Part shown: positions 8,037-54,560 of the stretch, one piece after another | Position numbering within the stretch: the stretch's first letter is position 1 | Layout of the letters: each line of letters opens with the position of its first letter | Source of the DNA: Conoideocrella luteorostrata | Lineage: Eukaryota; Ascomycota; Sordariomycetes; Hypocreales; Clavicipitaceae | Assembly: GCA_032433595.1 (NCBI GenBank) | Contig: JASWJB010000280.1 | Location: 1 to 59,445, forward strand | DNA length: 59,445 nucleotides | Direction of reading: 5' to 3' | Notes under the pieces: model-generated | Told to the model about the DNA's origin: nothing | Database searches by the model: none | Seen by the model: only the letters and a program-made list of their open reading frames with translations | Position numbers and translations under genes: made by a program

Positions 8037-9020
8037 GGTCATGCAAATCACTTGTTAGTGGATACAAAGGGCATCTAAGAGATAAGGGAGATGACATACT
8101 TCAGTCTCATTTGTAAGACTTCTCAAGAATTTTAGAGCCTAAGATTTATTGGAAGTAGTTTAAGATTCAAATTCAAACACTTTCATGCCAAAGCCAATAC
8201 ATATGTTGATAGCCATCTCTAGGTCCTAGAGAACTTGATCCAGGAGTGCTATTATTAAGTTTCACCTATATAGTAGTTTTGATTATGAATAATTTCTCCA
8301 ATATGAATCCTGTGGGCACAGGCGTGATCTCAAACTCGGACAAACTTTCACCCCCTCATCACTGGCCCAAATAGTACACCAATCTCTGTACACTACTATA
8401 CAATAAGTGTCAAATGCCGTAAAAAGTCTCATTGGATAGGGAAAAGCCCGTTTCTTCGCTCCTATCACACGTCCGGTTTCCAACCCAATACACACATCGA
8501 GGACGCGGTGTTTTCGATACAGCCATTGAAGGCGCTAAGATTGAATCGCCGCGCGCGCGGAGACATGCATCTTGCACTTGTATTCAAGCCCTTGCGGGAG
8601 CCGTTGTGGTGATTTAGAAAGCGCTTTTCTCAACAAGAAAAACTACCTTTGAGATACTGCCTCGTTTAAAGACATGTTCGGATTCTGTTCGAAGGCTTGG
8701 ACTACATGCATACGCAAGCCCACGTTATACATACTAGTCTATCAACCAGCTGCCGCAGAAGTATATTAAGCTAACACTGTTAGATTTAAAGCCGGGACAT
8801 GATTGAGATTATCGCTGGAATCCGAGATCAATGCTCATTATGGGCAATCCCACGTGTACTACACTCCTGAACAAGCACAAACCGAACCCTTGCCGTTTAA
8901 TTGCTTCGAATAGAATACGTATCGGCCGTAACGATGCTTACCTCCACGCAGCTTAAATATATATTTGCCATTCCTATAGTCTCAAGCGCCGTGTCCCCGG
9001 TGCGGAGGCTGACATGATGT
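8037..9020. other. Intergenic, nothing recognised
   Basis: Unique-looking AT-rich sequence between the NLR relic and an LTR. Short open frames only, no motif, no RNA gene seen. Confidence 0.4.
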
Positions 9021-9349
9021 TGTTGAGACTAGAGATGCTCGTCTTCACGATTACTGCCGTAAATAGCTAGAACCTATAGCATGGCCACATCTATCGGATA
9101 AGAATGGTTAATTAGAGTTAAGATTCGGAGGAATTTGGTTAAGCTGAAAACACGAGGATACGGGGAATACGAGGATATGAAGCCTGTAAAGTTACATAAA
9201 TAGGTGGCTTTCAAGCCCTTCAGGAAGTTCAGAATCATAAAAAAAAAAAGAATATTATCAATGTCATTTAATTCAGTCGGAATTTTAACCCTTCTATTCC
9301 TATCAATTTTCCACCGCCCAAAATTCCTCAAAGTGCTCATAACGCAACA
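9021..9349 (-). mobile_element. Solo LTR, family A
   Basis: Reverse orientation: starts TGTTGAGACTAGAGATGCTC, ends CTCATAACGCAACA, 329 bp. The flanks GATGT (9016-9020) and GGTGT (9350-9354) are a near-match 5-bp duplication with one mismatch. Contains the family hallmarks TGCCGTAAATAGCTAG and ACCCTTCTATTCCTATCAATTTTCC. Confidence 0.8.
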
Positions 9350-9534
9350 GGTGTGTGGTGCCGACCGAAAGTCCGCCTAAGCGCCTTACAAATTATCCTC
9401 CAAAAATGGCATCCCAACAGAGACCCGACCTCCAAAAACCGGCATCACGACTTCCATAAATGGAGATACATTTGCGGTAAACCCGTAACTTTGCTGTAAG
9501 GAAGCTGGCGGCTAGTAGAATGCTTGCGGCAACC
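9350..9534 (+). repeat. Dispersed repeat shared with 42045-42120
   Basis: The block GACCTCCAAAAACCGGCATC followed by ACGACTTCCATAAATGGA recurs, diverged, at about 42060-42105 (GACCTCCAAAAACGGCGTCG). Element type unknown. Confidence 0.5.
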
Positions 9535-9805
9535 ATTGAGTAAACAACTCGGCTCGGAGGAAGATGCTGGCTGAGACATCACGGCAGCTATCGAATGAGC
9601 GGTTGGGCTCGAAGGAAGCTGCTGGCTACGACATCGCGGCAGGCAGCTATCGATTTCGGTCGGGCTCGTAAGGAAGCTGCTGGCTGAGATATCGCGGCAG
9701 CTATTGAATGAACGGTTGGCTCGAGGAAAGCTGCTAGCTGAGATATCATTAAACAAACGGTCGGGCCTAAAGGAAGATTCTAGCTACGATATCGCGGTAG
9801 CTAAC
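9535..9805 (+). repeat. ~60-65 bp tandem repeats abutting the helicase gene
   Basis: About four copies of the GGAAGCTGCTGGCTACGACATC / CGCGGCAGGCAGCTATCGA unit. The array ends about 30 bp before the ATG of the XPB-like gene at 9835, so it occupies the place where the normal promoter and 5' exon should be. Confidence 0.75.
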
Positions 9806-9834
9806 ACTGCTTTGAACAACTATATATCACTGAT

Positions 9835-12129: not shown

Positions 12130-12136
12130 ACAAGCG

Positions 12137-12335
12137 TGTTGGAATCCTGTTGGAATCCCTCGTCAAACATACCAACGATTTGCAGACAAGGTCACGTGGC
12201 TACCCTAGCGCGCTTCTTTTATACGGCGCCCTCGGGGGCATTCCTCTTCCCGTTCTCTTCTCTTGGATAACCCAGATCAGATGAAATGAATTATTTGCTT
12301 TTTGTTTTAATTCACACGCAATGCACACTGGCATT
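12137..12335 (+). mobile_element. LTR family B copy
   Basis: Starts TGTTGGAATCC (tandemly doubled at 12137 and 12148), then CCCTCGTCAAACATACCAACG, GGTCACGTGGCTACCCTAGC, CGGCGCCCTCGGGGGCATTC. The distal end is not defined because no clean target duplication was found. Similar starts occur at 17468, 23281, 39371 and 54736, and a 5'-truncated copy lies near 59236. Confidence 0.6.
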
Positions 12336-13114
12336 TTAATTAGCAGCTACTTTAGTTTGTATTTTGTCACACAAAAATAGCGTAACCAGAGGCCACTTTT
12401 CATGTGTAGTTATAACCCTTAAATAGGCTCATATTGTCCTATGACACGCGCACTGCGCGGGCCAGCACGCCGGGTTGGGGCATGTGGCAGTGCCAGTACC
12501 AGTGCTCGTTGGGCAGGGCGTAGAGCATTCGTGTCTGATCTGATTCCTTCACAGCAGGACATGTAGGAAAGACGACCGAGTAAAAGAACGCTCGTCCAAG
12601 TGTACGTACGGCGGGTTGGGACAGAGTTTCTAGCCACCAAGTTTACTGAGGCATGCGTGAGCAATTACTACCGAGGCCTTGTCACCATGTGGCAGCTACA
12701 AATCATCTGATCTCGTTTATCTAAGAGAGAAGAAGAGGAAGAGGAATGCCCCCGATCGGAACTCCCTCTAGTGACCCGGACAAACTCTACAGAGCCATTA
12801 TCGCAGCTCATGACAAAGTCATTGGTGCGTTCATAAAGAACTGATATAAATCGGCTGTCAGCCTGGTATCCGCTCAGTCGTAATTACATTCTTGGACGAG
12901 CCGACTACACATCTTTTAGCCAGCGACTGGTGTTAGAGCTGGCGTGCCAAGCCTCGCCCCAACGCTAGCCAAGTGGCGGGGCCACGTGACCCATACACGG
13001 GTCCGGGACACCCGCCGGTCAACAGCCCGCGCCGGCTTCCAGCATCCTCTCTTGCGCCATCTCCGCAGAGAAGGGGTTACAGTCGGCTCGGTAGCCCACA
13101 TCACATCTGCAAAC
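12336..13114. other. Intergenic: mixed repeat debris and VPS54 promoter side
   Basis: 12369-12445 is shared with 22016-22092 (GCGTAACCAGAGGCCACTTT, ATGTGTAGTTAT). About 12660-12770 contains an inverted fragment of LTR B (AGAAGAGGAAGAGGAATGCC). The last ~300 bp before 13115 look unique and are presumably the VPS54 5' region. Confidence 0.45.
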
Positions 13115-18540: not shown

Positions 18541-20225
18541 TCTTTACCTTCAAATTACCCCCCTGTTGTGGCGGCTGTGTGACTGTTGAGATGGCCAGAC
18601 CTGGTTTTTGGCGGATTGCGCGCCGGGTGGTTTGTTTCGCGCTCTGCCTTTTATTTAATTACATGTGCTAGGCTTTATTATATCCTTTTCACCAGGTTTG
18701 GTTTCGTCTTGTCATGTTATTGTTGTGTTGTGTTGTGCTGTGTTGTGTTATTGCGCCCGTAAGTCGCCTTGTTGCTGAATTCCTAATAAAGCGGGTTTTT
18801 TGTAGGCCACACACCGGATGATTTGTTTTGCGCCCTGATTTTTATCGCAACTTGTGCGCTGGGCTCTTGTGCATCTTTTGCACTAGGTTTGGATTTGTCT
18901 TGTCATGTTGCTGTTGTGTCGTGCTCTGTGCTACTCTTGTGCTACTTACCAGCCCCTCTCCACCCCAGACCAAGCCCTGCTTTTCTTGCACCTTGGGCGC
19001 TGACCCAGATCTAACATTTGCCTGGGCAGCAACATCATCATCATCATCAGTTGCGGCATCATCACCAGCAGCGGCATTTCTTGCGTGGGTAGCAACATCC
19101 ACGTCAGCAGCAACGGCATCATCAGCAGCAGCTAACTCATCCCCCCTCCCGAGTGCTGACTTTTCCCCTCTCCCCAGTGCTGAAAGCAGCAGCGGCATTA
19201 TCATCAACAGTAGCGACATTTTTTGAGTGGGCAGCAACATCCTCATCATCATTAGCAGCGGCAACATCCCCATCGGCGGCGACGGTATCCTCATCGGCAG
19301 CGTCATCGTTATCATCATCATCAGCAGCAGCAGCGGCATCATCGAGCTTGTCAGATCGACCCGCGATACCAGATGCCTGCAGGTCTTCCGAAAATTGAAC
19401 CTTTGAACGAACTCGTCAGATTGACCTACAATGTCTTATGCTTTGTGCAGGGTACGTCTCCCGAAATTTAAGCCATTTCAACGAGCTCGTCAGATTGACC
19501 GACGATGTCTGATGCTTCGATAGCGCCTGTAAGTCCCCCGAGAACCGAACTCCCGAACAAGCCCGCCAGACCGACCTGCGATATTAGATACCTGTACGTC
19601 TCCCAAATTTGAACCGTTTTATTGTCTTCATTAACTACCTTGCGATATGTTATACCGGTACGTCTTCCGGGAATTGGACCTTTTTGACAAGCTCGTCAGC
19701 TGACTTGCGATACCAAATCCCTCTTGCAGGGCCTGTACGTTCCGAGATTTAAACCTTTTCAGCGAGCTCGTCAGACTGACTTGCGATATCGAATGCCTCT
19801 TGCAGCCTACACGTCTTCCGACAATTAAATCCTTTAACCAGCTCATGGCAGCCCGTACGTCGTCCGAGAATTGAGCCTTTTCCAATGTCTTTGTCAGATC
19901 GACTTGCGGTATTTCATGTCTGTACATCTTCTGAGATTTGAGCCTTTTAACAAGCTTGTTAGATTGACCTGCGGTATCTAATGCCTCTTCCAGTATATGT
20001 TTTCCCAGATTTGAACCTTTCAAAGAGCTCGTCAGATTGACTGCATATCCGACACTTCGAGAACGTCTGTATTTGAACCTTTCAATGACCTTGTTAGATT
20101 GACCCTGCGATCTAATGCTTCCTGCAGCGTATGTACGTCTTCCGACATTTGAACCTTTCGACGAGTCTGTCAACTGACTTGCAATACCTGATGCTTCTCG
20201 CAGCGCTGTACGTCTTCCGAGAAGG
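18541..20225 (+). repeat. Composite repeat, copy 2
   Basis: Same order as copy 1: T/G-rich body (GTTGTGTTGTGCTGTGTTG, GCGCTGGGCTCTTGTGCATC), TTTTCTTGCACCTTGGGCGC, long ATC/CAG trinucleotide tracts (19030-19350), GAGTGCTGACTTTTCCCCTC blocks, then the 76-bp array. The terminal GC-rich block is not at its left end here but follows on its right. Confidence 0.65.
19365..20225 (+). repeat. ~76-bp satellite array, block 2
   Basis: About eleven degenerate monomers of CGTCTTCCGAGATTTGAACC ... GAGCTCGTCAGATTGACC ... GATATCTGATGCTTC. It ends exactly at the hairpin at 20225. Confidence 0.75.
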
Positions 20226-27918: not shown

Positions 27919-28775
27919 GTTATGTCCGGTCCGGTGCGCCGGACACTTTGTTGTTCAGGATAGCCGTACTTGCGCTAACTCCACTCACCGTTTCAAGATA
28001 GCTGTTTATGTTGCGCTATGCGGGGCCTGCAGCCAGTTTCTTTGCTATGCTTTCCATCTCTCCTACATCGTGGATATGCAGAGCTTTACTTTTTTTTTTT
28101 CGGATAATTTGCATGAAGTAGACAACTGCAACTTCCACACCTCTCTTGTTAGAGCTTTATGTGAGGCCGCCTTGCAAATACTGGGCCGCCTTTAGTCGCG
28201 CGCATCACGCCGCCCCCGTGCAATATGCGCAATACGGCTGGACGGTTTCATCTATGTTATTTGGGCGGTCGAAGAATTATCGCCGGCTTATGTTTGGGGC
28301 CGGCGGCTATGACAGGAAGCTGTTCATGTCGGATTGTAAAAGTGGGTGGCTATTGCGGGCTGCTCTCAATGAGTCAGTCAGTGTCAAATTCCGAGCGCAT
28401 AAACAGCCCCACCGGTTTGCGTTCAGCTTGATCAATTTCTTGCTTTTCAACTGCAGGGTAGAGGTGCCATATTAGCGTGCAATAATCCCGGTCGTAGAGC
28501 ATAGCGGATAGTTTATTTGAGGCTGCGTCGAGTTGAGGGATTAAATAGCTATTGATAATTTCTGCCTTAAATTTCCTCTGAACAGCGAATCTCTGTGCTG
28601 TGATTGTATGTGTTCCGGGAAAGTCATGATTACATTCAATTCGCGAACGGTCCGGAAAATATATAAAAAGGTTGGTTCATCCAGATAATACAAGATTGCC
28701 ACTGTAGACCAACCAATGTGTTCAGTAAAGATTTTCGGGTGACTTCTTCTTAAGCTTGATTATTCATCTGATACA
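27919..28775. other. Intergenic, promoter side of the 28776 gene
   Basis: GC-mixed unique sequence with no recognisable protein in the short frames at 28146-28475. The ~100 bp before 28776 contain ATATATAAAAAGG (28660), a plausible TATA element for the downstream gene. Confidence 0.45.
28660..28675 (+). promoter_or_regulatory. Candidate TATA box
   Basis: ATATATAAAAAGG lies about 105-115 bp upstream of the ATG at 28776, a spacing compatible with a fungal core promoter. Inferred from sequence only. Confidence 0.4.
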
Positions 28776-31667
28776 ATGTACGGCATTAAACACGTGTTTA
28801 TATTTTGTCTAGCTACTACCTCAGTAGCCTTTCCCAACCAAAACAGCCTTAGCATATCCAAGAGAGGCCTTGCTACGCCGACTGGAAATGAGAGAATACC
28901 GCTAAAAATAACACTTGGAAGCACGGAATGGACTCGTGAGCAAATATCTGAGACGATAAAGAATGCTCGCCCTAGTGATATGAAGGATTTTTACAATCGC
29001 GGTCTACAAAATGTTAAGGGGAAATGGGTCTCTAAGAGCGGAAACTTATTTGAAGGACTACCGACCTCTAATCTGCAGGAAATTGATTTAACAACAGGTA
29101 TGAGACTATGGACTAGGCGACCTAATCTTGAGTTAAGTGCTTACGCGATAAATAGTTTCAAAAGACCGTGGAAAATATCGAGTCATTGTCACGAAGAATA
29201 AAATGTTTATTGGTATAACAGAGCATGTGGAAGCCGATAATGTGCGGAGTTTGTATGACGTGAACGAAAAAGCCAAAGCTGGAGAATTTTTAAATGGTGG
29301 GTCTCTACCAGAGTCAATAAAAACAACAAACAGCCTATCGGTTAGTCGCAAACAAATCGCTGAAGCAATGGACGGGAAGGTCAGGGGAAGCAAAGTGGGT
29401 GATGGATGGGCGAGAGAAATAAAAGAATTAGACGGTACGCAGTTGCAACATCCCTACCCTACCTGATCTTTCGCGTGTTGTTTTGCATAAAGAACATCAA
29501 GGATGAGAAGTTAATAACAATCACAGGGAGTTTGTCCAAGAATATTCGGGTTGTCTATAAGGGAAACACCTTTATTCGCCTGGAAGATTTTTCAAACGAG
29601 GACAATATCCGCCCGGTTTACACACCCCCTCCATGCAAGCGGGATGGAACGCCTTGCCCCTATCATATTTCAGACAGTACGGAGGAGATTACCAACGACA
29701 ACCGGCCTGGTGAAGTTAGTGCTGGCTCCGAAGAATTGGGAGTAGCCGAAACGCCCAATAATAATCGGCCCGGTGAAGTTGGTGCTAGTCCCGAAGAATT
29801 GGACGTGGCCAAAACTGCCGAGGAAGTGTCAGAAATGGAGTTTGCCGCATTTGCTAGAGCATTTGGCTTAGACGCTATTCCAAAGAAGTGGAAGATGAAA
29901 TTCTCCGAGGTGCGGCCCAAGTTGCTCGGATACAAGCCGCTAATGCCCAAGTCCCCGAACTTGCGAGCTGGCTCTGGCGGTGTAGCTGGAGCAAAGCTTT
30001 TCGGAGCCGTTGGAGTCGCTGCATGGGTAAATGGAGTAATCCAGGCTTTTAGACAAGATGCAAGTGCCTTGGATCGGGCTGCTGCTATAACGGCTATTAT
30101 CCCTTTTGTGGGTTGCGCTGTTGGACGCGCCGCCAAAGACAAAAATAATGAAAATTCCGTTATTAATTCCATTGATGAGGCTTTATGCTACCTGGGAGAT
30201 GGTTTGCTTCTAGGTGGCTTTGCTCCTGCTGCTGTTGTGGTTGGCTTTGCTAGGGTAATTATCCAGAGTTTTAAGCCTCCCCCTGAGCTACCAAAAGAGG
30301 AGGAAATACAGAGAGCTCGTGATGAGTCATGGAAAGACTTTATTAGTGAACAAGTCTTTACATTTATATACTCTCATGAGAATCTCTATCCAGAGGGCAG
30401 AAATGGTAGCTTCGCACCTATGTTAGAGAGTGCTCTTAAGATTGAGTCTCTGGCAGTTATTTCACGAATAGCGCAGGAAATAGGGGCACTAAATGCCAGC
30501 AGCCGGATATCTTCCCCTAACTTAGATCAAAAACAGCTTCAAATCAGCGCCCAGAACGCCACTGAAAAAGTCCGCGAAGAAGCGTTGGCAGAAGTTGTAA
30601 AAAGACAGCAAAATACCTTGCTTGGCCTTCCTTTTAGTCTAAGGGACAATTTTGAAGCCTCGCTTAGCGCTTCTGCTAGGGAATATAACAGTAAGTTCAT
30701 TAAAGAAATTACTTCTTCGGCAATGATTAAAAAACATTCACCATCTGAACTGGTTTCAGACATAGCTATTGGTGAAACAGCGCTGGTTGGCCCTGCGGAT
30801 CATAAGGAAATAAAATACGGGGAAGCCAAAAGGCGTATGGAAAAAATCAGCGAGTTTCTGCAAAAGCAACCTCTTCCCATGCCTAGTCTTTTTGAAGTGG
30901 CATTCGTTCTCGGACAGTCTAAAGGAATGAAGATTACTCCGCGCACGTTGTCGATACAGGACTTCCTGAAGCAGAGGGTTGCTCCAATATCAAATTCCTT
31001 AGCAAGTGCAATTACTATCACACATGCAACTAGTGTTGTACGTTTACTTCAAGGCGAGATCAAAGAAGACCAGCTCCCTACTACTTATCCTCTTTTAAAC
31101 AACGACATACGCCACCAACTTAATATTCTCTTGTCAATTAAATTGGGCAAGATTTATGAAGACGCTAAGGTGGCAAATGCTGATAAACTAAATGGCCGAT
31201 TTCTTTCACCAACAGAGCGCGACAGTCTTGTGCGACCTTTAGTTCCACCGATTGTTACTAAACCCAACACTACTGTTCTTGTTGGACTTTTGATTGGACT
31301 TTCTAACACTATCGCCGAGGCTAAATTAAACGAGTCCAGCCATGAGTTACCAGAGAAGCAACGCGAAGATGTAAATAAGAAATCTAACATTTTCCAGACA
31401 CTAGTAAACAGGCCCCAGGGTCCAGAGACCATCTTGAAGTTGCAGTTTGAATCCGACGCTACTTCTAGGGCCGAAAATAGCACAAATTCTACGTCTTTAA
31501 AGGCCATTATGACTCGGGACAAAGACCCCAGAAGAGAGCTTAATTTGGGCTCCCGCAATGAAACAAAGACAACAAATTCAGACGGCGAGCTTTTGTTGGC
31601 GGCTTTGACATATGCCGAAAAGCAGACGCAAAGGATGCGCGACATGGTTGCCAGGAAATTAGGCTAA
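28776..31667 (+). CDS. Secreted enterotoxin-like protein with large helical C-terminal region
   Basis: Three exons fit in phase: 28776-29097, 29156-29434 and 29527-31667, with 58- and 92-bp GT-AG introns (the second ends AATCACAG). They give 913 residues. The first ~20 residues (MYGIKHVFIFCLATTSVAFP) are a signal peptide. The N-terminal third has no clear ART catalytic motif. A pair of ~21-residue repeats (NRPGEV(S/G)A..EEL.VA) follows near 29700-29820. The remainder has hydrophobic helical segments (AGAKLFGAVGVAAWVNGV; AAAITAIIPFVGCAVGRAA; CYLGDGLLLGG) and a long alpha-rich tail. That central block resembles the C-terminal half of the 'heat-labile enterotoxin' proteins of insect-pathogenic fungi. 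Membrane passage or host binding is inference. Family assignment rests on this resemblance and is moderate. Confidence 0.62.
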
Positions 31668-31689: not shown

Positions 31690-31940
31690 GTGTTGCGTTA
31701 TGTGTCTTCATGAGCATTCAAGGGCAACTTGCAACAGTGGAAATCGGCAGATATAGAAGGGATCAAGTGAATAGATTGAATTGATGAAGATGATGGCCTT
31801 CCTGAAGCAGTCCTCTCAACAAGCAGTACTAATTGATAAGACTCATACTCGTACTGGTTGCTTGATTACGACGATACTAATCCTGATTGATTAGCTTATC
31901 AGTAAATCACATGGTATAACGTAATTGTACTTGTGACACT
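31690..31940 (+). mobile_element. LTR family A, degraded
   Basis: Starts TGTTGCGTTATGTGTCTTCA (31692), then GTGGAAATCGGCAGATATAG. The right half is shortened and the end is not defined. It lies about 25 bp after the stop of the 28776 gene. Confidence 0.6.
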
Positions 31941-31944
31941 AATG

Positions 31945-32290
31945 CTTCGATAGCGCCTATACATATTCCGAGATCTGAGCCTTTTCAACGTCTTCGTCAG
32001 ATGGACTAGCGGTATTTCATGCCTGTATGTCTTCCGAGATTTTAGCCTTTTCAGCGAGCTCGTTGGATGGACTTGTGATTGCTGATACTCCTTGCAGTGT
32101 ACGTCTTCCGAGATTTGAGCCTTGTCAATGAGCTCGTCAGATTGAACTACGATGTCTAATGCTTCGATAGCGCCTATGTCTTCTAAGAATTGAACCTTTC
32201 AACGAGCTCATTGGATTAACCTACAATATCAGACGCCTATATGTTTTCCGAGATTAAAGCTTTTTCAACAAGCTCGTCAGATTGACCTGT
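31945..32290 (+). repeat. ~76-bp satellite array, block 4
   Basis: About four to five monomers (TATGTCTTCCGAGATTTTAG, CAGCGAGCTCGTTGGATGG and similar) between an LTR A relic and the ART gene. Confidence 0.7.
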
Positions 32291-32626
32291 CCACCGTTAT
32301 CCTGCTATTGTTAAGAGGAGAATTGCTTCTGTCAGGAAGATTAGTGCTGTAAATAGCTAGATTAGTAAGGGAATTTATCCCGATGTGACAGCTACGAATT
32401 ATCTGATGCTTTGCAGTGGAAAATTACCTTTGATTTCTACCTAATTTGGCGAGGAATTTAACTGCTATTTATCTCTTTAGTGTGTGTCTTCTGAATTCAT
32501 TTATCCCATTGCTTCCGGGGGTATCATAAGCTTGCGGCGGCATCGTAGGTTTTCACACATCCACGCAGTTCTACGTGACCTTGTCCGCAATTGCTCGTAC
32601 ATACGCTTCACGAGGGATACCAAAAA
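32291..32626. repeat. Mixed repeat debris 3' of the ART gene
   Basis: Contains an LTR A-like start (TGTTAAGAGGAGAATTGCTTC, 32309), a block also found at ~2225 and ~39300 (TTTGCAGTGGAAAATTACC, AACTGCTATTTATCTCTTT), and a scrap of the TTTCCGG short repeat. Confidence 0.5.
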
Positions 32627-33667
32627 TTAGCGCTTTGATGGGGCTTTGCAGTTCCTCCTCCTCCAAGAGCTCCCCAACGGCTGCTTTCTTCTTTCATCCC
32701 TCACCCGATCTGCCATGCTGCCCGAAAATTTTTTGTCGTTACAGCGAGGGTCCACCTTTCCATCTTTAAGCTCGTCACCATTTTCGTTGGGATCCTGTTT
32801 GCTGGGGTTCTTGTATTGTTTGCGAGCTAGATCACAAAAATTTTCGTTCCCGCTCTTCACACAGACTTTAGTCCAGACAAAATTTGCCAGATGATCCGAC
32901 GTAGACATATCAGCATATTTTTTCCATGGCTTTCTTTTCCAGACATTTTGAAACACTTCAATGGTAGAGGCTGGCACATCGACATCTCCTTGTTTAGGGA
33001 GGCCAGCGAGCTGCAGCTGTTCGCCGCTTGGTTCCTGTGACTTATATCGCTCAAGGTTGTATTTATCGTTTTTTGTGAATTTCAGACGGTTGATCCTCGT
33101 GTCCCATTTGCCACTAAATCGCCTTTCGTCCTGTGTTATTTCGTACCAGCCCTCTACTTGGTCCCATGGAATAAATCCCACTGCAGCTTGCTCCTTTTCG
33201 CTGGCAATGGGGGAGTAAGTTTTGAGTGATTTATTCACGTCTACCATTTGATGGCCAGTCTTGATTTTATATATGTAGCTGGTAGCAGCGCCTTCAATTT
33301 TGGAAGCAAAGCTAAGTGCCACATCTGGATCTGTGGTTGTCGATATATAATGAGTGACTTCTTTGGACATCCCCATTGCATGTTGAAATAAACTGCTCCC
33401 TTTGTTCAGCTGTGCATTGGTGAGTATTTCTCCATCTAGAACTCTTTCGAAGCCTCGTGAGTAAAACCCGCCATCTTCTTCAATCATAGCTGGTAGGCGA
33501 GTTATCTCGCCACGCCAGACAAAACTGTCTTTCAAATCTAGAGGTTGGGGTGGTCCTAGGTCTGTGCCACGAGTCACTCTGCTCCAAGCCGTATTAGACT
33601 GGTGAGCCTGTCCCAAAGAAATATACTGGAGGGTTGTCCACTGGAAAAAAGTGAGCCAAAATCTCAT
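32627..33667 (-). CDS. Secreted mono-ADP-ribosyltransferase, enterotoxin-A/pertussis-like
   Basis: Single-exon 346-residue secreted ART of the R-S-E clade. In this family NAD+ is cleaved and ADP-ribose moved to a host protein. N-terminal signal-like segment (residues 1-21). The three active-site motifs are present: Arg in FVWRGE (R52), the STT strand in HYISTTTDPD (109-111), and the ExE pair in SEKEQAAVG (E157/E159), followed by the family's GFIPWDQVEGW. The C-terminal ~150 residues are lysine/arginine-rich with four to five cysteines and end in RRNCKAPSKR. There is no separate B subunit and no long helical tail, unlike the gene at 28776. Motifs suggest an active enzyme; target unknown. The relic at 37690-38391 is a relative. 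Neighbours are LTRs and satellite, so it is not in an operon-like cluster. Confidence 0.82.
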   Translation of the reverse strand: MRFWLTFFQWTTLQYISLGQAHQSNTAWSRVTRGTDLGPPQPLDLKDSFVWRGEITRLPAMIEEDGGFYSRGFERVLDGEILTNAQLNKGSSLFQHAMGMSKEVTHYISTTTDPDVALSFASKIEGAATSYIYKIKTGHQMVDVNKSLKTYSPIASEKEQAAVGFIPWDQVEGWYEITQDERRFSGKWDTRINRLKFTKNDKYNLERYKSQEPSGEQLQLAGLPKQGDVDVPASTIEVFQNVWKRKPWKKYADMSTSDHLANFVWTKVCVKSGNENFCDLARKQYKNPSKQDPNENGDELKDGKVDPRCNDKKFSGSMADRVRDERRKQPLGSSWRRRNCKAPSKR

Positions 33668-34559
33668 TTTGTAGAGTTGGAATTGATGCGGGAATAATAA
33701 GGATAGATCCGAGAAAATGAGGAAAGGGCTTGAAAAGAGATTAAAAAGGGAAAGAGAATGAAACCTAGAGCTCTTGTATATAAACCAAGTGTAACGATGC
33801 GAATGGCTGTAGTCAATCTAACAGTTGCATAAGTCCTTGGTTCCTAGCTAGTTTGACGACAAATTGGGCCTCTTCTTATACTTGAATAATAAGTTTGTGG
33901 TCAATCTCTTTGTCACAGGTCATATAAAATGCATTATTCGCGCTATTAGTGTGCGGCTCCACCTTTTTGCTGAATTTTGTGACATCCTTCAGTCCCGTTA
34001 GCGATTTCGTTGCTGCCGATCACTTTCGATATCCTCTTAGGTGCTAGACCTAATTGTTGGATTACGTGGCCCTTAGACCGGAGTCAAGGAAGAAGGCCAG
34101 GATGGAGGAAACCTGCCGGCCCGAGTCATGGAGGACGCTCGTCATGGTGGATGGAAGGGGGGATTAGAAGGGCTATGAATAAGGGGATCCGGAAGGGTCT
34201 CAAAGGAGAAACTCTGGGTCTTTGTTCATCGTCATCGCTTTCGTCAATTTATATGACCTCCAACAATTTCCATTCATACCTGCTACTTCTGACACTAATA
34301 CAGGTGACGTGTAGAATAGTTTTTTATTCTGCTACTCCGGTACAAAAAGGAAATAACTTTTACAAGCCATCCAAACGGATCGAACATATCCCATGTATGG
34401 TGGCACTCGAATCTCGCACATAATATCTAATTCAAAAGTCTTACAAGTAGGAGTGGACCGAGTCATTGTCATTAGATCCTTAGGGGTACAGCAACATTGA
34501 AGTGCTGAATTGTATGCAAATATCTCTTACGTTTTTTCATGAAGTCAATTAAGAAGCAA
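33668..34559. other. 5' side of the ART gene and unassigned sequence
   Basis: 33905-33985 is similar to 36890-36975 (ATATAAAATGCATTA..CGCTATTAGTGTG). A 56-codon frame at 34247-34417 (+) starts with a signal-like leucine-rich segment (YLLLLTLIQVTC) but has no family match and may be chance. GTTGGATTACGT at 34056 recurs at 48228. Confidence 0.4.
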
Positions 34560-37689: not shown

Positions 37690-38391
37690 GCTAGCTAAAA
37701 TTCAACTATACCAAAGGGTCTAATTCCTTGTCAGTTAACTAGAATTCAAAGACTATTCCACTGCTGAAAGTCGCCACAGCTTCTCATTTCGTGGCGTGCA
37801 AGCTGAACGGCAGAATGGGACCAAGTCGTTAGTTCCACTATTCTGCCCAATGGTAGAGATACAAACAAGGCCGACAGAAAGCTGCGTCCTAGTAAAGACT
37901 ATAACAAGAAGTATGACGATTTAAAGGCGGGTGGGCTACAGTATCAGCTCGCCGGCTTTCCCACTCAACACGAAGCGTGGTCCAAAGAACCATGGAGCCA
38001 ATACAAACATAAAGATCTTAAAGAGAGTGGGCTGCAGTTTGCCGATGATAAGGGTATATCTGTGGGGCTAACCAGGAACAGCCCACTAAAGTTCGATATG
38101 AAATATACTACTGGGCAAAGCACCTTTTACGTGCCTTCGCCCTCAAAAGATAACACTTTACGGCCGTCCAACAAAAAAGAGAGTCCGGGCTTATCTTCAT
38201 CTTCATTGAATGAAGAAGAAGAAGAAGAAGAAGGACCTGGGAAGAGTGACGACAGGCAGGCAATTGGAAAAGAAGATGCTCGTTGTAGGAACAGGAATTT
38301 TAAGGGCAGCAAGGCGGATCAGGATAGGGATAGTAGAAGAAATAAGAAGCTAGGGAGTTCTTGGAGAAGTCGAAACTGTAAAAAGTCTTAG
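37690..38391 (+). pseudogene. C-terminal relic of an enterotoxin-type ART
   Basis: The last ~110 codons are open (38062-38391), and the upstream part reads through a stop and frame changes. Similarity to the 32627-33667 gene is clear: WDQV at the post-catalytic strand, LQYQLAGFP (versus LQLAGLP there), and the terminal KLGSSWRSRNC (versus PLGSSWRRRNC). The catalytic Arg and STT regions are absent, replaced by the LTR at 37334-37680. A poly-Glu tract (EEEEEEE) marks the linker. Not functional. Confidence 0.75.
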
Positions 38392-44860: not shown

Positions 44861-46092
44861 ACTTGTTCGACGCCGGCAACGTTAACGAAGTCTTACAGCT
44901 GAAGGTCCCGTAGTTTCGTAGATTAGTCATTAGTCTAGCACGTCCTGTGCCCCTCGTAGTGGACCTGAGCGGCCTGAGGCCGCTGGACGGAAAATACACA
45001 TAAATTCATACGTACACTTTGCACTTTAGTGCAATGGATATTCAATCTAACAATTTGGAACTGTGACTTCCAAAAATACACAGAGAGCATGATGGACTCA
45101 GTAGTCCTCCATCTACATGTAATCGGAATTAAAAAGTCCAAACCTTTTAAAAATAAGGCGCATTAAGGTAACAGCACGGCTAGACGCAAGCAAGCTCGTC
45201 TGGAGCTTAAGCCCTTTGTTTTTAATGCGGTGCCCACCAGGCAGGGTGAGTGGATCCAAGATCTTGTGGCAATGGTCGTGGAGATCAGCCGGAAGTGGTA
45301 AACTAACGGAAACAATTCAAACACTGGTGCCGCCCCCAGTTATGACATAGCTTACGGAGTACAATTGCTGGCATTCTGGTCATAGGTCAGTCGGGTGGGG
45401 AGACTTTCTCCACAATGCTCAGGATCACCACATGCCACCATCGTTATATCCAACCCTCAATTGTAGGGCTGTTTTAATTGCACATTATCCGCCAATCTAT
45501 TGGTCGTCGCCTTTCATGAATAATGCTTTGACACTATTATGAGCTGATTTGCGCCATTATTCAAGCAAGTCCATTGCTACGCGGGCTATCTGTCGAGACC
45601 GGTGAATTATTATAGCTACGCAATAGGCCAGGATCATCTATAAGTTGGTATTTCCGTTGTGTACTAGATGCAGAATGGCTAGTGGAGGCGTCGGGGTTTC
45701 CATCAACGAGCATCCCGGAAAGTCGGTTCCATTGTGGACCTCCTCCACAAGTAGTTACCATCGAATGCAGGGGCTTTTCATTTGGACCCATCATTATTGA
45801 TTAATCAAATCCTAGAATGCCTCGACTCGTACACGCTGGGTATCTGGCCTCTGCTGACTCAATAAGCCGGTCGTTAAATGAAGAGTGCAGTGGTTGTCTT
45901 ACACTTGGCGCTCGTGTAAAGAACTCACAGCATGCAGAAAATTCTCTCCATGTCACAAGTAGTCCATTGTGTCTTCTTATTGCTGCACGTTTAGGAAAAC
46001 TATAAATTGTCCAACAAAGCAAACCTTGAAGAAAAAATGTTTACTTTAAGCCAACCCTTTCTTGTATTCTTTACATAACCTCGGCCACAATC
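44861..46092. other. Intergenic, 5' side of the 46093 gene
   Basis: No recognisable gene. Minus-strand frames at 45561-45794 and 45801-46022 lack motifs. A single-copy-looking buffer between repeats and the two-module ART-like gene. Confidence 0.4.
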
Positions 46093-48144
46093 ATGTCCTG
46101 TCAACCCAAGCAAGCAGCAACCATGATGTTTAGACACTGGACTATTTTGCTGACATTGTTCACTGCTTCTCTTTTTGGGCTTCCTGCTGTCAAGGCTGCG
46201 CCAACACCACCAAAGTTCAATCACACCATTAGTTCCCACGAGTTTGTATACATCGTCGGGGAGCGCGGCATCTTGGAGTCGCCTGTACATTATCAATCTC
46301 AAGGCGGCATTGGTCCAACTAGATGGGGTTGGTATAACTTGAGAGAAGAAAGTGGATTTACCCCGGTTACTCGTGCCCTTAATTTGGTCGAAGAAAGAAC
46401 CCAATTTCTGCGACACTCTGCAGAGGGATGGATTTATAGAATTGCTGCTTCGCCAAACATGATCCCTCGCCAAGCAGAAGCACCTGGTTCGATCACTTAC
46501 ACAGCCCTAGGAGGCATACTATGGTCCCAAGTCCAAGCATATGCTCCAATCGACAGGTCATCAAACGGGGGGGATCTTCAATGGCAACCAAACCCAGACT
46601 ACGATGGAAGGTGGGAGAACTTTGGCCTCGGCGGCGTACAACCTTTCCTATCTGGCCGCGACCGACCGGCAGATATGACCACTTCGGAAATAGTGCGGCT
46701 CTTCTTTAACGATGTCAGTGGCCAGGACAATAATGCCTTAAACGCAGAAAGGCGCACCATTTTGCGAGAACTACTAAGCTGGAATACGGATGTCGAACCA
46801 AGTCGTAACTTTCCGCTAATTCGTGGACAGCAAGGTAAGGATAATCTTAGGCTACCATGTATTTTGGCCGCTGTGGCTAACTGCTGTAGTTGAATCTCTC
46901 ACAAGTATGACACTTCGGCAATTCAATTGGGGTAGCTTGAATCTCTCGCCATTTTTCAATCTTATGCTATCAGAAGGTATCCCAACAGCAGCCCAGTGTG
47001 CAGAATTGCTTTTTATGGTAGGCGGGCACTTGGGAAATAAGCCAAACCGCAGGAGATCCAATGATGAGGAGGCTAAGCAGGGCAATTGTGATGACTTGGC
47101 TTCCGCAATCCAGGCAAAGACCATCATGGATGGTGTTGAACGTGGTATGAATTATCACCCTATTAATGCATATTGTATAATCTAATAGTGACAGCAGGCC
47201 CATCAAAAGGAAAAGAGGCATTGAAAGGTTCAAAGAAATCGTCTATTGTCTTCCATGGCGACAGTGTGTGGCCTGAGGAGGCTCGGGCGCGCGGTGGACT
47301 CTTTCCAAAACAACTCAAGCCCCTGGGTCCTAACGAGAAGCATTTAGACAAAAGCGGGAAGGAGGTCAGCTTGGACTGGATGAGCTCTATTGTTCCAGCC
47401 TACTTGACATTTGGCTCCGCAGCGGTAAAAGCAGCAGACCTTGCTTACCACAACAATATAAGCTTAAATGGCGTAGTGTACGCTGTCCATGCTACACCGA
47501 ATGTTCTTGCCTATGGGAATAATGCAGTTGCTGTCGGGGGCTTTCGATGGTCACAGGTCCTAGGCTGGATGCAAGTACCAAAAAAATATACTTATCCCAA
47601 GGACAGTGCTTTGGAGCGGGCAAATCTGCGACAACATTTTGCCAAGGCATTCCAAAGTGACACGAACCTATTCACACCTAACCCTGACTATGATCATGGG
47701 TTTGATCAGTATAATGCCACAACACAGGTGTCGGAACATTTCAGCTCAACCAGCGAGTTTTTACAATTCTTGAATAAGAACAAGGGGGGAAAGGCAGTGA
47801 GCTGGAAGGGATCTCCCCTGTTCAAGGCTAGAAACCGTAAAGTCCCTGGTAAAAGTAACAAGGGTAAGGAGAGCGTCTCAACTCCTCACGATCCAACAAC
47901 GTGGGAGAGACTCGAACGTTTTACAAAGGACCATGCTGTGGCTCTCGCCCTTTTACCTGCGGCTGCGGCGCTTAACTTTATTCCTGGCTTGGGTGAAGCG
48001 GCGGATGCCGCTGAACTTACTGCCCTCTGCGCTGACTCTGTCGAAAGCATTGAACTAGCCGATGCTGGTAGCTCTGCAATTGGCGAGACAGCCAATGGAC
48101 TAGCACAGCTACTCAAAGGCGCAGAGAAGCTCAAATTTGATTAA
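46093..48144 (+). CDS. Secreted protein with two ART-fold modules lacking catalytic residues
   Basis: Three exons in phase, 46093-46834, 46890-47144 and 47198-48144, with 55- and 53-bp introns; 647 residues. A start at Met11/Met12 gives the better signal peptide (MFRHWTILLTLFTASLFGL). Module 1 has YIVGERG, VEERTQF, WIYRIAASPN, GGILWSQVQAYAPI and PNPDYDGRW. Module 2 has VFHGDSVWPEEA, VVYAVHATPN, GGFRWSQVLGWMQV and PNPDYDHGFD. This is the order of strands in pertussis/heat-labile-enterotoxin A domains. The catalytic Arg is replaced (V in module 1, H in module 2) and no ExE pair precedes the GG(I/F)xWSQV strand. After a basic linker the C-terminus has a helical hydrophobic segment (AVALALLPAAAALNFIPGLG). 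I infer a non-enzymatic ART-fold binding or decoy protein; a divergent active enzyme remains possible. Confidence 0.75.
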
Positions 48145-49523: not shown

Positions 49524-50109
49524 GTGCAGTGCAGTGCTAGTGCTGGTGCTGGTGGTTGAGTTGTGGTGGCTAGCGTGTAAGCCTGCGGGACTGACCTGGA
49601 TTTTTCTGGCTTTACGGCATGACTCTGTATATCTAGCGCGCTTTTTTCTCTTGCATCCTATACGCTAGGCTCTCCTACATCTTTTGCGCCAGGTTTGGCC
49701 TTGTCTCGCTGCTGTTGTGTTGTGTTCCTGACCAAGCAGGTTTTTCGAAGACTACGCAAAGGGTGTGACGATTTAGGCCCTACTTTCCATTGCATCTTAT
49801 GCGCTGAGTTCTTCTGCACCCTGTACGCTGGTTTCACTGCATCATGTGCGCTGGTTGTTGTGCTGAGTTGTTGTGTTACACTTGTGTTACCAGCCCCGTA
49901 TCGCTTGTCCTGACCAAGCCCTGCTTTTTTTGCACCTTGGGCGCTGACCCAGATCTTACATCTGCCTGATGGGAATGACTATTCTTGCGTCGGCAGCAAC
50001 ACCATCAGCAGCAGCAGCAGCAGCAGCATCTGACTTTCCCCCCTCCCGACCGTTACTATCGTGACCGGAATCCTGACCTGTGGCCGCCATCTTCGTATCT
50101 TCATCGTCG

Positions 50110-51055
50110 TCAGATTGACCTGCGAGACCTGATGCTTCTTGCAGAGCCTGTACGTTCCGATATTTGAGCCTTTTCAACAGGCTCGTCAGATTGACCTACA
50201 ATGTCTGATGCCTCTTGCAGTGCCGATACGTCTTGCGAGACTTGAACTTTTTCATCGTCCTCGTCAGATTGACCGACGATCTGATGCTTCTTGCAGCGCC
50301 CGAACCTTTCAACGAGCTCGTCGACTGTCTGAATTAGATCGCGACCGACTATCCCATCACCAAAGAAACCGTCTTGGTCAGATTGCGTCACAATATCTGA
50401 TGGATCCGATGCTTCTTGCAGTCTATACGTTGTTCAACATTAGAACTGTTTCAACGAGCTCGTCAACTGACTTGCGATATCTGATGCTTCTGGCAGCCTG
50501 TACGTCCTGCGAGGTTTAAACCATTCAACAGGCTCGTCATACTGACTTGCCGTATCTAATGCTTCTTACAGCATCCGTACGTCTTCCGAAATTCGAGCCT
50601 TTCAACAAACCCGTTAGATCGACTTGCGATATGTATGCTTGCACGTCTCCCGAGATTTGAGCCTTTCAACAAACTCGTTGGATCGACCTACGATCTGATG
50701 CTTATGCTTCTCACAGCGCCCGAACCTTTCAACAAGCTCGTCAGATTGACCTGCGATGTCTGAGGCTTCTTGAAGCATCCGTTCGTCTTCCCAGAATTGA
50801 ACCTTTCAACGAGCTCGTCAGATCGACTTGCGATATGTAATGCTTGTACGTCTCCTGAGATTTGAGCCTTTTCAACGAGCTCGTCAGATTAACCTACCAT
50901 GTCTGATGCTTCGATAGTGCCCGTCTGTCTTCCGAGAATTGAACCTTTGAACGAGCTCGTCAGATTGACCTGCGATATCAATTGTCTGTACGTTTTCCGA
51001 GATTTGAGCCTGTCAACGAGCTCGTCGACTGACTTTCGATATCTGATGCTTTGTG
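50110..51055 (+). repeat. ~76-bp satellite array, block 6
   Basis: About twelve monomers; several carry the full TGATGCTTCTTGCAGCG / GAGCTCGTCAGATTGACCTG order. Confidence 0.75.
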
Positions 51056-51056
51056 C

Positions 51057-51208
51057 CTGTCAGTTCCAACTCCCTCCTCATCCTTATCTCCCTCCTCGCT
51101 AGCCTCGTTGTTGTCGCTCCTGCCGACCTCCTCCCCATCCTCGTCTACGTTAATAGTGGCGGACTCCGTCTCGCTCAAGTTGCCGTGAGTGCTTATGGTT
51201 CGGTCCAT
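51057..51208 (-). pseudogene. Acidic protein fragment divergent from the NADAR relic
   Basis: Begins MDRTISTHGNLSETESATIN and continues as a very acidic stretch (EEGDKDEEG), then runs straight into the 76-bp array at ~51055, so its C-terminus is lost. It is transcribed away from the NADAR relic. Family unknown; it may be part of the same foreign segment. Confidence 0.4.
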
Positions 51209-51302
51209 CTACATGTAGTGATTAAACCGGTTCTTCTAGTACTAATATCCAGCAGGATCTACATAATCCGATAACTACCATCATCGTCATTCAAGCGACC
51301 AG

Positions 51303-51790
51303 AATAAACGAGAACTACATCTTTTTCTGGAGGACTAGGGACGGCTACGGGTGCTAAGCCAGTGGTACATCTTGACCTTTGCGCGTGATGGGAAGACGTT
51401 CGCGAGCACCGAGATATACAAGAAGGCCGAAACCTTTGGCGACGTCGAGGTCATGTCCAGGATTGTCAGCGGGTTCGGGCTGCACCCGGCGGAGCATAAG
51501 AATATGGGCAGGATGGCGAGGAACTTTGTTCAACCCGACGACCTGGGACCGCGAGTTTATGCGCATCTGCAAGTTCACGCAGAGTCTAATGCTTATGAAC
51601 CTCTTGATGAGCACCGGCCAGAAGATCTTGGTGGAGAGCAGTCCAATCGACAGGATCTGGAGCATCGGGTACACGAGCCAGAACGTCTTGGCGAATATGA
51701 AGATCTGGGGGGCAGAACAAGCTGGGCAAGGCCCTCATGAGCGCCTCTGAGCTCGGGGACATGAGGAGAAACGCCAACACCAACACATTC
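51303..51790 (+). pseudogene. NADAR-domain (YbiA/DUF1768) relic
   Basis: The domain is readable in order but in three frames: ENYIFFWRTRDGYGC (51310-51354), then FARDGKTFASTEIYKKAETF and HPAEHKNMGRMARNF (51360-51530), then TWDREFMRICKF and LLMSTGQKILVESSPIDRIW (51540-51700), then WGQNKLGKALM (~51708-51740). These match the start, central and terminal motifs of NADAR proteins. Some members of the family remove ADP-ribose from guanine, others act on riboflavin precursors; members occur in bacteria, fungi and large DNA viruses. Frame changes near 51354, 51530 and 51710 exclude function. Base composition is more GC-balanced than the flanking repeats, as in the polymerase relic that follows. Confidence 0.72.
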
Positions 51791-51819
51791 GAGATCATCA
51801 CCAAAATGAGGCAATCCCA

Positions 51820-53430
51820 TCATCAGTATCATGGTATCCAACGGGGGCTGGTACAACAATGAGTTCGAGGACAAGTGCTATTGCCTCTATACCTTCGGTA
51901 AGTGCGGCAAAATCAAGTGGCCGGAGGGGCGCAACCCCTACGTGGCAAAGGTGTCCAGGAACAAGGAGGCGACCAGAGAGACCTACAAGGTCATCAACAT
52001 GCTCAGCCCGGACTTGGTGAGCGTGCACAACGGGTTCAACTAGAACTTGTGGTGCGTGCTTGGCGGCCTCAAGCGCGCCCTTGACCTCATGGTCAGGCCT
52101 GCGTTCTCGGAGAGGAGATTGGGCTGCTTCGGCGTAGGGATCTTCTGGAGGCTTGACAACGGTACCAGACTCGATGCGCATAGGGTACGGCTGCGATGGA
52201 GCCAACTAGCAACAGGTCCTCGTTGACCCTAGCAAACAAGTCCGAGAGGTTCAACCTAACCCCCGAAGATGCAGGACAGCGGCAGCATGGCGGTTAGACC
52301 CAACGACAGGATCGACGTCACGAATATCACCGAGTATAACGCCAGAGACTCGGACCTCCACGGCTGATTTGCGAGCAGTCGTGCATACTCGTCCGGGTGT
52401 CCGGGAGCACTATGTGGGACGCGATGGCTAACAACACAGCCGTGATGAAGTTCTGCCTGCAGCAATCTGAGGCCCTGAAATGAGACGTGTTGCTTGACTT
52501 GAGCAAGAACACTAGGGTGACCGACGATATCAAGTACGAGGGTGGCTTCGTCGTGGTCCTAACTCCTGGAGGCTACAAGGGCGTGGCCATGTTGGACGGT
52601 AACTCTTTGTACGGCTCCATCATGAAGCACTTGCAGATCTCTGTGGACAGGTGCATCTCGGCATCCAGTATTGTGTCCCAGTGAAAGAGACACGCCCGTA
52701 CTACTCACTACCTGACAATGTGGACCTACAACGAGTATGTAATCGTGATAACGACTAAACGCACCTACATATCCGTGTTGCAGGGCGAGGAGACTTTGTT
52801 GGGTTAGATGATGGGCGCGTTGATACAGTCGAGGGTGCACGGCGAGGGAGGAGGCGAAGAAGTACCCTAAGAACAGCATCGAGTAGCGCAGGTGGACGGT
52901 CTTGGGCCAGTGCTGTGGGTCAGTGTCTACGCTGGCATGAAGCTGAAGATGTTGATAGAGAAGAGCCTAGTCGGAACCCTGTTCGAGAATGTGAACGTGG
53001 ATCTGAAGGGGCAACTACAAGTACGTACATGTTGATCACGACCAGGAACGAATACTCGACCGTGGACTAGAGGTATGGCGGCGACGGTGAAGAGAGACAC
53101 GCTCCCGAAGGCAAAGTATGTCACAAACAACGTTATCAACACCTCGAAGACAAAGGAGGATAATAAGAAGAGAAACGTGTCCGAATTTTTGGGCAAGACC
53201 ATAGACGCCATCAGTAACAACAAGCTGCCGCCGACCATCCAGATGTTCGAGACAAAGATTAACTGCCATCCCCACTATAAATACAAGTCCGAGGAAGGCG
53301 TCTACGTCAGCATCCTGGTAGGCTCCAAGAAGTGGGCTTTGGAGAGGGTTGAGGAGGGTCGCGATGGCGACTATCTTGGGAGGTTGCAGGGTCGGGTCAT
53401 GTCGACTTGCTTATGTTCTTGTACCAGATG
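51820..53430 (+). pseudogene. Family B DNA polymerase relic, large-DNA-virus type
   Basis: An exonuclease-like part reads MVSNGGWYNNEFEDKCYCLY and LSPDLVSVHNGFN (Exo II-like, 52003-52042), ended by a stop. Next come SDLH and STMWDAMANNTAVMKFCLQQ fragments in other frames. The polymerase part has YEGGFVV and DGNSLYGSIM at 52595-52624 (motif A, DxxSLYP-like) and KYPKNSIE at 52860-52883, where motif B (KxxxNSxYG) would fall. No convincing YxDTD motif C is left. A thumb-like stretch (ETKINCHPHYKYKSEEGVYV) lies at 53235-53300. The order and spacing of exo, A and B support polB. The GGF...DGNSLY signature is more like viral polymerases than nuclear delta, epsilon or zeta. Many stops and shifts. This appears to be an endogenised viral copy; the virus group cannot be named by eye. 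Confidence 0.72.
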
Positions 53431-54560
53431 ATTATGAGGCAGAGAAGATGTGGTGGATCCAGCGCGTCCCAGTCGTAGTCGTGTTCGTGCGGGCAATCAA
53501 AATCGTGTGCATTATCGTCATCTAGTTGGTGGTACCCGCCATGCTGGTCACGGGTCGTCGTTCGTGGATGCGCATGGGTCACATTGAGAGGAGGTTGTTG
53601 ACAACCTGGACAAAGGCAATGAATAATTTGGTGTTGCTGTCAACACTACACTAAAGACGAGAAAGAAGAAGTGGATCTGCTTGGGTATCTGCGGTAAGCA
53701 TTATTTCCTGTTGATGGGTTTTGGCCGCTAGGAAACCTTACTGATGGCATTTGGACAGTGGCTACTATCCTTATAATCGTCATTGTCGTTCTCCATCTAC
53801 ATTTCCGTCGTCGGAGCCAACCATAACAACAATAACAACTACAGAAGGTTAGAGGATTGTTGGATCTGGCAATTTCTCGACCGATTTTTGGATACAACGA
53901 GGTACGACTGGTCGAGCTCGGGTGGTGACGCCGTTCTGCGCGTAGCTGCTGGTCCCATCTTCAAGCACTGCGGGAAGCACGATAAACAACCTCGAGAGAA
54001 CAACTCGACCTGCAACACGATGAACTACGGGCATACGACGAGCGATGTCAGGGTCCGCATGGATGGCAACTACTGCAATAGGGGTTGCGAGGCCATATGC
54101 GTTGGGTAGAAGTGCTGCACATGGCGGTTTCAAGTCCGTCACCGGCTACTACCTACCACCCCAACGTAGGGATTGATGTTTGTACACGACGACGCAATAC
54201 GGCAGCAGGCCCGAACGAGTTCTGCGTCAAGTGCATGACCGAGAACGAGCACATAGGCCACCCTGGATCACGAACAAGTTCGGGAGCACACGCCAACGTG
54301 TCCACAGGCGTTCCCGATAGTGTATCTATCTGATGTAGACGGAGGTCATGTCTGTGGTGTCTATGTTGATGTTGAGGTACGTCGTCGGGTGTATTGTGCC
54401 TCTTCACCTAGGGTCCCGGTTTTGCTCGTCATCACCAAAGCCATCATCAACATGCTCTCCTTGACCTCAACGGCATGAACGTGAGCTTGATGTTCTTCTG
54501 GGTGATCCCCACGCACTCGAACTCGATGTTGCCGCCGGACTAAAGTTTAGCGCTGGGTGC
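53431..54560. other. Remainder of the virus-like segment, unassigned
   Basis: Same GC-balanced composition as the polymerase relic. It holds scraps of frames on both strands, for example a cysteine-rich one at 53930-54108 (CGKHDKQPRENNSTC, NYCNRGCEAICVG), none with a recognised domain. The segment ends at ~54560, where a dispersed repeat (54580) begins. Confidence 0.45.

Follow-up and report, generated by a model that had tools for sequence, protein, structure and literature searches.

The window, the whole stretch of DNA analysed here, was a contig of 59,445 bases (C280) from the ascomycete Conoideocrella luteorostrata, in which relics of a NADAR domain gene (PF08719) and of a family B DNA polymerase (PolB) adjoin, both of them broken, as detected with Pfam and by a search with a full-length relative of the polymerase, P0010. 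The assembly searched comprised 46.4 Mb in 620 contigs, the other contigs being numbered likewise; for strain ARSEF 14590 of this insect pathogen a polished Illumina assembly of 47.39 Mb in 864 scaffolds has been described (PMC12352038; here and below, statements drawn from publications refer to the portions of their text that were available). The main features of the locus were the following:

51285..51800, forward strand: NADAR gene relic with a tail after the domain, in at least two frames (PF08719; nucleotide identity 75% to C328:34663-34185 and 77% to C153:89358-89803)
51807..53350, forward strand: PolB relic, about residues 170-772 of the 815-residue P0010 (P0010 search and tblastn maps)
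52008..52040, forward strand: Exo II, PDLVSVHNGFN, followed by a stop (reading frame; the sister copy on C328 reads SPDFVNVHNGFNFDL, with 82% identity over the piece)
52595..52624, forward strand: motif A, DGNSLYGSIM (alignment with the PolB family)
52860..52877, forward strand: KYPKNS, the stretch preceding motif B (52842-52913 aligns with P0010 residues 523-546)

Two overlapping frames carried the NADAR domain. The frame at 51376-51747 matched PF08719 over profile positions 98-152 and above the cut-off of 35.1 bits (E = 3.9e-11, 43.9 bits), and the frame at 51339-51737 matched positions 12-82 below that cut-off (E = 5e-4, 20.8 bits). With P0010 as query, the polymerase was recovered at 51807-52385 (E = 2.2e-60, 52% identity), 52187-52846 (E = 2.0e-53, 50% identity) and 52931-53338 (E = 4.1e-35, 57% identity); judged by sequence comparison, these matches are far beyond chance. 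The window PolB also matched phrog_262 (E = 2.3e-7). PF00136 gave a match below the cut-off on the open piece 52484-52681 (E = 2.5e-3) and no PolB match was obtained with the other nine pieces tried.

The N-terminal part of the polymerase was missing from the window and residues of about 556-618 (P0010 numbering) were deleted, so that Exo II and motif A were the only complete motifs. KYPKNS, which an earlier note on this DNA had read as motif B, was rejected as such: the segment 52842-52913, whose alignment is weak alone (E = 0.043) yet in order, corresponds to P0010 residues 523-546, and the true motif B (VSVYG) starts at residue 552. A comparable KYPKGS stands 19 residues before KLLVSVYG in the relative P0003. 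In the window VSVY is joined directly to P0010 residue 619, and motif B is therefore cut short and motif C (DTDS at residue 600) deleted. Nine in-frame stops were counted in the 484 codons mapped to P0010, and the window and C328 polymerases, 79% identical over 1653 aligned bases, were separated by 21 gaps, 16 of which were not multiples of three. Other open reading frames of the window reach 774 and 1053 codons, and the decay of the relic is real. No strong sign of repeat-induced point mutation was found as its cause (TpA/ApT of 0.76 over the whole relic and 0.93 over the polymerase part; for the second index, 1.07 and 1.02, respectively); by the thresholds that we assume for these indices, the polymerase part is borderline. 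The guanine plus cytosine (GC) content was 0.531 in the relic vs. 0.476 in the satellite on its left. Apart from motif B, what the earlier note had described at the locus held: the two relics side by side, the positions of Exo II and motif A, the decay by frame changes and stops, and a composition different from that of the flanking satellite.

The same genes recurred elsewhere in the genome. At E ≤ 0.001 the P0010 search returned 22 matches, three of which (on C176, C212 and C254) correspond to other, presumably nuclear, polymerases; PolB relics were found on six contigs (C280, C328, C109, C153, C22 and C370). NADAR lay directly upstream of PolB, in the same orientation, on C280, C328 and C153, about 5.5 kb from it and downstream on C109, and alone on C5. 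The fuller set was that of C328, with NADAR (Pfam E = 1.2e-31), PolB (one long copy, 31938-34094, and a shuffled copy, 11606-13091; palm domain PF00136, E = 1.4e-23), a Cys-rich gene and the relic of an RPB2-like RNA polymerase; matches to the exonuclease PF03104 (E = 5.8e-4) and, in neighbouring frames, to PF00562 (RPB2 domain 6; E = 7.2e-5 and 6.2e-3) were below the cut-offs. The RPB2-like relic (C328:27470-29924) consists of four pieces that together span residues 4-817 of the protein P0061 (E values between 8.8e-133 and 6.8e-34), and it was the sole copy found in the genome. The sister NADAR on C328 shared 41-49% identity with NADARs of 11 IMG/VR contigs.

Some of these relics are carried as genes in the NCBI annotation, namely QQS21_010782 (P0014) and QQS21_010780 (P0060) on C328 and QQS21_006138 (P0007) on C109. 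P0060, an RNA polymerase model of 925 residues with out-of-frame stretches, matched a C328 frame at 100% identity across 99% of the searched part. P0014, without motif B, joins NADAR and PolB in one model; a genuine fusion was rejected, as the two genes are in different frames on C153, where PolB has a possible start of its own. Since P0010, P0012 and other members start with Met and have no NADAR match, the C328 fusion was probably made by deletion, and from their sequences the two appear to be distinct genes. Between the polymerases of the window and C328, 117, 93 and 178 differences fell on the first, second and third codon positions, respectively (484 codons). This third-position excess points to a divergence of the two lineages in part before coding was lost, i.e., to more than one entry, and separate entries of related elements are suggested as the simplest account of the divergence.

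A first protein search with the 351-residue open palm frame of C328 gave eight proteins, and a palm profile made from six sequences gave 54 matches: 30 PolBs of 725-853 residues (P0009-P0038), 16 shorter pieces and eight distant PolBs (P0052-P0059; 19-29% identity), among which is a spider protein (P0058) that is not a family member. Full-length copies of the family numbered 25 (782-815 residues), on metagenomic contigs. Motifs and contig sizes were counted over 31 PolBs (P0001 and P0009-P0038) and all 22 RNA polymerase sequences described below, the other partial sequences and the eight distant PolBs being set aside. The Exo II pattern [IV]HNGF[NG]F and motif C were present in 31 of 31, Exo I in 30 (the remaining one, P0001, is a fragment) and the motif B pattern in 23, the decayed P0014 being among the eight missed. 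In the four members scanned, PF00136 was always the best model (E from 1.5e-29 to 7.7e-38, the latter for P0010); PF03175 matched only one of them (E = 1.2e-5). The exonuclease PF03104 appeared only below its cut-off (E = 5.8e-4, in the sister copy on C328, and 1.8e-3).

In a tree with 21 references, including four host PolBs, the family formed a clade (support 100) whose stem measured 2.52 substitutions per site. The references were nuclear, archaeal and bacterial PolBs, with no giant-virus (nucleocytoplasmic large DNA virus, NCLDV) and no protein-primed polymerases, and the family was not nested in any of the groups tested. The structure model of P0010 (mean predicted local distance difference test, pLDDT, 89.6) showed a PolB fold over almost the whole length; in a fold search with it, the polymerases of RB69, archaea, herpesviruses and African swine fever virus (ASFV) and pol alpha tied within about 2 Z units, with no lineage favoured. 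On these comparisons, the window polymerase is best described as a member of a distinct PolB family of about 800 residues with exonuclease and polymerase motifs.

Family members or relics were found in ten genera, all of them Pezizomycotina and belonging to four classes: Sordariomycetes (Conoideocrella, Fusarium, Hirsutella, Xylaria and Apiospora), Leotiomycetes (Cadophora), Lecanoromycetes (Circinaria) and Dothideomycetes (Saxophila, Coniosporium and Elasticomyces). IMG/VR scans, which need short exact peptide patterns, gave no relative for the intact PolB or RNA polymerase queries and none for the broken RPB2 frame, and a single match of 42 residues for the C328 palm frame. A phage origin was rejected, as the phage PolBs listed were 23-25% identical and the RPB2-like protein had no phage match. 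Bacterial or archaeal carriers were likewise discarded, the RNA polymerase profile having found none in GTDB genomes; among the best 80 of 560 matches to the PolB profile there were archaeal and bacterial records only, at 22-29% identity. No description of the family was found among the titles and opening abstract lines of open PubMed Central papers, the search having left subscription journals and preprint servers aside, and the word stem 'fung' is absent from the main text, as available, of a review of PolB diversity (PMC7544198).

The search with the RPB2 frame, in which the 7991 best candidates were scored, gave 22 RPB2-like proteins, most of them close to 800 residues long. Eight contig sizes were common to the PolB and RNA polymerase lists (22610, 23781, 24431, 24815, 25116, 26420, 32482 and 48561 bases, the last being that of C328). 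The 38 metagenomic contigs counted, whose sizes are those of contigs and not of finished genomes, reached at most 33,710 bases, and 22 of them had at least 20 kb; 15 of the 25 full-length metagenomic PolBs were on contigs of 20-34 kb and none on a longer one. A complete replicon of about 22-34 kb would be expected to produce such a ceiling near 34 kb, and a genome of 100 kb should give some longer fragments. The contigs that carry the family in named fungi were small in F. albosuccineum (25.1 kb), C. calcarea (23.8 kb) and S. tyrrhenica (16.8 and 13.4 kb) and large in H. rhossiliensis (1.08 Mb), A. aurea (3.38 Mb), Xylaria (420 kb) and Coniosporium (167 kb); the large ones look like chromosomal relics.

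From this we consider it probable that the window holds a dead, rearranged insertion of a double-stranded DNA (dsDNA) virus-like element of Pezizomycotina, of about 22-34 kb and equipped with its own replication and transcription enzymes. The living element would be an autonomous replicon of that size, virus or plasmid-like, copying its DNA with its own proofreading PolB and transcribing its genes with its own multisubunit RNA polymerase; the possession of both enzymes makes a cytoplasmic life probable, like that of poxviruses and yeast linear elements. NADAR would strip ADP-ribose from nucleic acid or nucleotides, shielding the element from ADP-ribosylating defences. NADARs reverse guanine ADP-ribosylation and have been proposed to protect phage DNA from host toxins (PMC11125620), and by analogy a counter-defence role for the gene beside PolB is plausible. 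Pieces of the element would have entered the chromosome by accident, probably through repair-mediated capture, and would then have settled in satellite-rich DNA and decayed. Accidental capture is probable because the scanned frames of C328 and the window, which represent part of the element, contained no integrase.

Several observations weigh against this interpretation. Outside C. luteorostrata the linkage of PolB and RNA polymerase is circumstantial, through equal contig sizes, and the NADAR partner was shown in C. luteorostrata only, next to PolB in three copies. A broken metagenomic copy (P0003), outside the sequences counted, was on a contig of 182 kb. In the RNA polymerase models P0070 (F. 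albosuccineum) and P0071 (C. calcarea), some stretches read out of frame, so that these copies may be decayed or badly predicted. No RPB1-like partner was found in the genome search with PF00623: three of the matches were long and open and are regarded as host genes, and a further one, at C157:62901-63500, was a decayed copy of a largest subunit, interrupted by in-frame stops, which reads like what we take to be a Pol III subunit. Neither a capsid nor a packaging ATPase was seen in the whole-genome profile searches (capsid controls silent; ATPase controls detected in 2 of 14). A terminal protein and termini were not seen either, no search having been aimed at them. A single entry would likewise fit the third-position excess if the copies had been duplicated while under selection. 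Finally, phage and YbiA-type NADARs failed to protect cells from DarT1 (PMC11125620), which makes the protective role of NADAR a guess.

Among the alternatives, a relic of a Nucleocytoviricota giant virus (e.g., asfarvirus- or phycodnavirus-like), of whose large genome only fragments would lie in the chromosome, is unlikely. It could draw on the sequence KADGVK in a C328 frame at about 26.1-26.9 kb, possibly a capping-enzyme-like motif; Pfam and PDB gave no support, and a capping enzyme was rejected as an assignment. PolB is counted among the NCLDV markers, as are RNA polymerase subunits (PMC10640383), NADAR is present in several NCLDV clades (PMC9503650) and two NCLDV genomes with suspected fungal hosts have been reported (PMC9894930). 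Nevertheless, the full-length copies were on metagenomic contigs of at most 33.7 kb, as compared to 70 kb to 2.5 Mb for Nucleocytoviricota (PMC10640383), and the fold search left ASFV tied with the other polymerases. The whole-genome search gave no match to the capsid PF04451 or to VLTF3 (PF04947), for which the controls were silent, nor to the A32 ATPase (PF04665); a relic may have lost VLTF3 and A32. The absence of relatives in the IMG/VR scans, within the reach of their peptide patterns, points in the same direction. The large-DNA-virus origin proposed in the earlier note can accordingly be kept in part: a foreign, virus-like PolB with a NADAR partner stands, and membership of the giant viruses is left unsupported by the contig sizes, by a deep clade of its own in a tree without giant-virus references, and by the fold. 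The capsid and ATPase relics that it suggested seeking elsewhere in the assembly did not appear in these profile searches, and its remark that such relics are uncommon in ascomycetes needs qualifying in view of the ten genera of Pezizomycotina.

Yeast linear elements have their own DNA polymerase, a protein-primed PolB, and measure 5-15 kb. A relic of a cytoplasmic linear plasmid or virus-like element of this kind, kin of yeast pGKL and with protein-primed replication, would share the economy seen here, in that a fungal element encodes an RNA polymerase for itself (PMC6211774), and the lack of any capsid gene seen here would agree with it (the genome capsid profile controls were silent). It is nonetheless improbable, as the family polymerase matches PF00136 and not the protein-primed PF03175 (apart from the one match mentioned above) and as the contigs are larger than those 5-15 kb. 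Polinton/Maverick elements are characterised by a protein-primed PolB, a retroviral-type integrase and terminal inverted repeats; here the polymerase is of the PF00136 type, and there was no integrase in the C328 and window frames, which cover part of the element. Because contig sizes and the lack of a match to three hallmark genes (controls silent for two of them) argue against a giant virus and the PF00136 polymerase argues against a yeast-type element, we named the source a virus-like DNA element, its affiliation being unmatched.

An assembly error or contamination behind the broken frames, for which a draft short-read assembly might give occasion, is very improbable: the relics are on six contigs, long open frames stand beside them in the window and C328, the Illumina data were polished (PMC12352038) and the copies have satellite sequence in common with the rest of the window. 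A decayed duplicate of a nuclear replicative polymerase, favoured by membership of the PolB family alone, has a negligible probability and was refuted by the genome survey (four other PolBs, taken as nuclear, on C212, C254, C176 and C128), by the identities to P0010 (23-26% for three nuclear-type PolBs, C128 not being among the matches listed, vs. 50-57% for the window) and by the separate clade, in agreement with the earlier note; the best match was neither nuclear nor a mitochondrial-plasmid polB, a PolB profile match was obtained, and PF03175 was the weaker model wherever it matched.

Further features of the relic, and of its surroundings, were as follows:

51180..51285, forward strand: left edge of the relic, upstream of NADAR and common to C328 (34713-34594, minus strand; tblastn of piece 51226-51354, E = 1.3e-6; exact edge inferred)
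53326..53531, forward strand: end of the PolB relic, also present, shuffled, at C328:17668-17512 (blastn)
53984..54253, forward strand: Cys-rich gene relic (match at 53984-54199 to the open frame C328:31126-31890, E = 1.4e-19 and 60% identity; 76% nucleotide identity)
54334..54508, forward strand: further fragment common to C328:17815-17997, where detectable homology ends on the right (79% in blastn, 183 columns)

The relic thus reaches about 54508, beyond the end at 53430 given previously. The Cys-rich relic has the same direction as PolB in the window and is convergent to PolB on C328, which indicates rearrangement. A satellite with units of about 64-142 bases occupies 19660-19835 and 50107-51051 of the window; it forms the left flank of the relic, where the array stops at about 51051, and related repeats occur on C328 and C153. 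On C328, partial NADAR copies run head to tail in two blocks at 7991-11603 (20 blastn rows) and are followed by the shuffled PolB pieces; by their sequence, these appear to be viral gene fragments made into a tandem repeat. Frames with high third-position GC at C328:24210-26917 had no family match. A more distant NADAR at C28:227408-227945, 28-42% identical to the relic copies over 41-49 codons, is possibly the fungus's own gene. Window frames at about 28743-31667, 32627-33817, 37807-38391 and 46030-48144 may belong to an enterotoxin-like ADP-ribosyltransferase family of insect-pathogenic fungi.

In a wider reading, to which we give about even chances, these sequences represent an undescribed lineage of at least family rank: autonomous dsDNA viruses or virus-like elements of Dikarya, of about 22-34 kb, with their own PolB, a multisubunit RNA polymerase and NADAR counter-defence, widespread in Pezizomycotina, repeatedly endogenised and missed by virus catalogues. 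Hardly any fungal DNA viruses are known, and the element matched no known group; in the available text of a 2023 paper (PMC10640383), no dsDNA virus is said to have been identified in fungi, with indirect evidence suggesting that they exist. A family with members or relics in four ascomycete classes, its PolB and RNA polymerase lying on similarly sized contigs, would provide a searchable signature and named species for these missing viruses. The PolB tree gains a deep branch with this family, and the presence of NADAR beside a viral polymerase suggests that ADP-ribosylation may be a field of antiviral conflict in fungi.

Among known systems, the asfarvirus-like giant endogenous viral element of Rhizophagus irregularis (PMC10640383) resembles the present case in the viral PolB and RNA polymerase genes within a fungal genome and in its several PolB copies; it differs in its size of 1.5 Mb, its Asfarviridae markers and its arbuscular mycorrhizal host, as compared with contigs of at most about 34 kb, ascomycetes and a PolB clade without known close relatives. 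The Nucleocytoviricota of oceanic crustal fluid (PMC9894930; also PMC10640383), compared by description only, likewise tie large-DNA-virus genes to ascomycetes, and differ in being Nucleocytoviricota genomes. Yeast pGKL-type elements (PMC6211774) are also fungal DNA elements with their own RNA polymerase, which has two subunits and is close to that of poxviruses, whereas an RPB2-like subunit of about 800 residues and a PF00136 polymerase were found here. The PolBs of T4-type phages and cyanophages (phrog_262; RB69 gp43) are among the closest known systems, and the NADAR family, including phage and NCLDV NADARs, has in common with the relic the PF08719 domain, above its cut-off, in a gene that here lies beside PolB.

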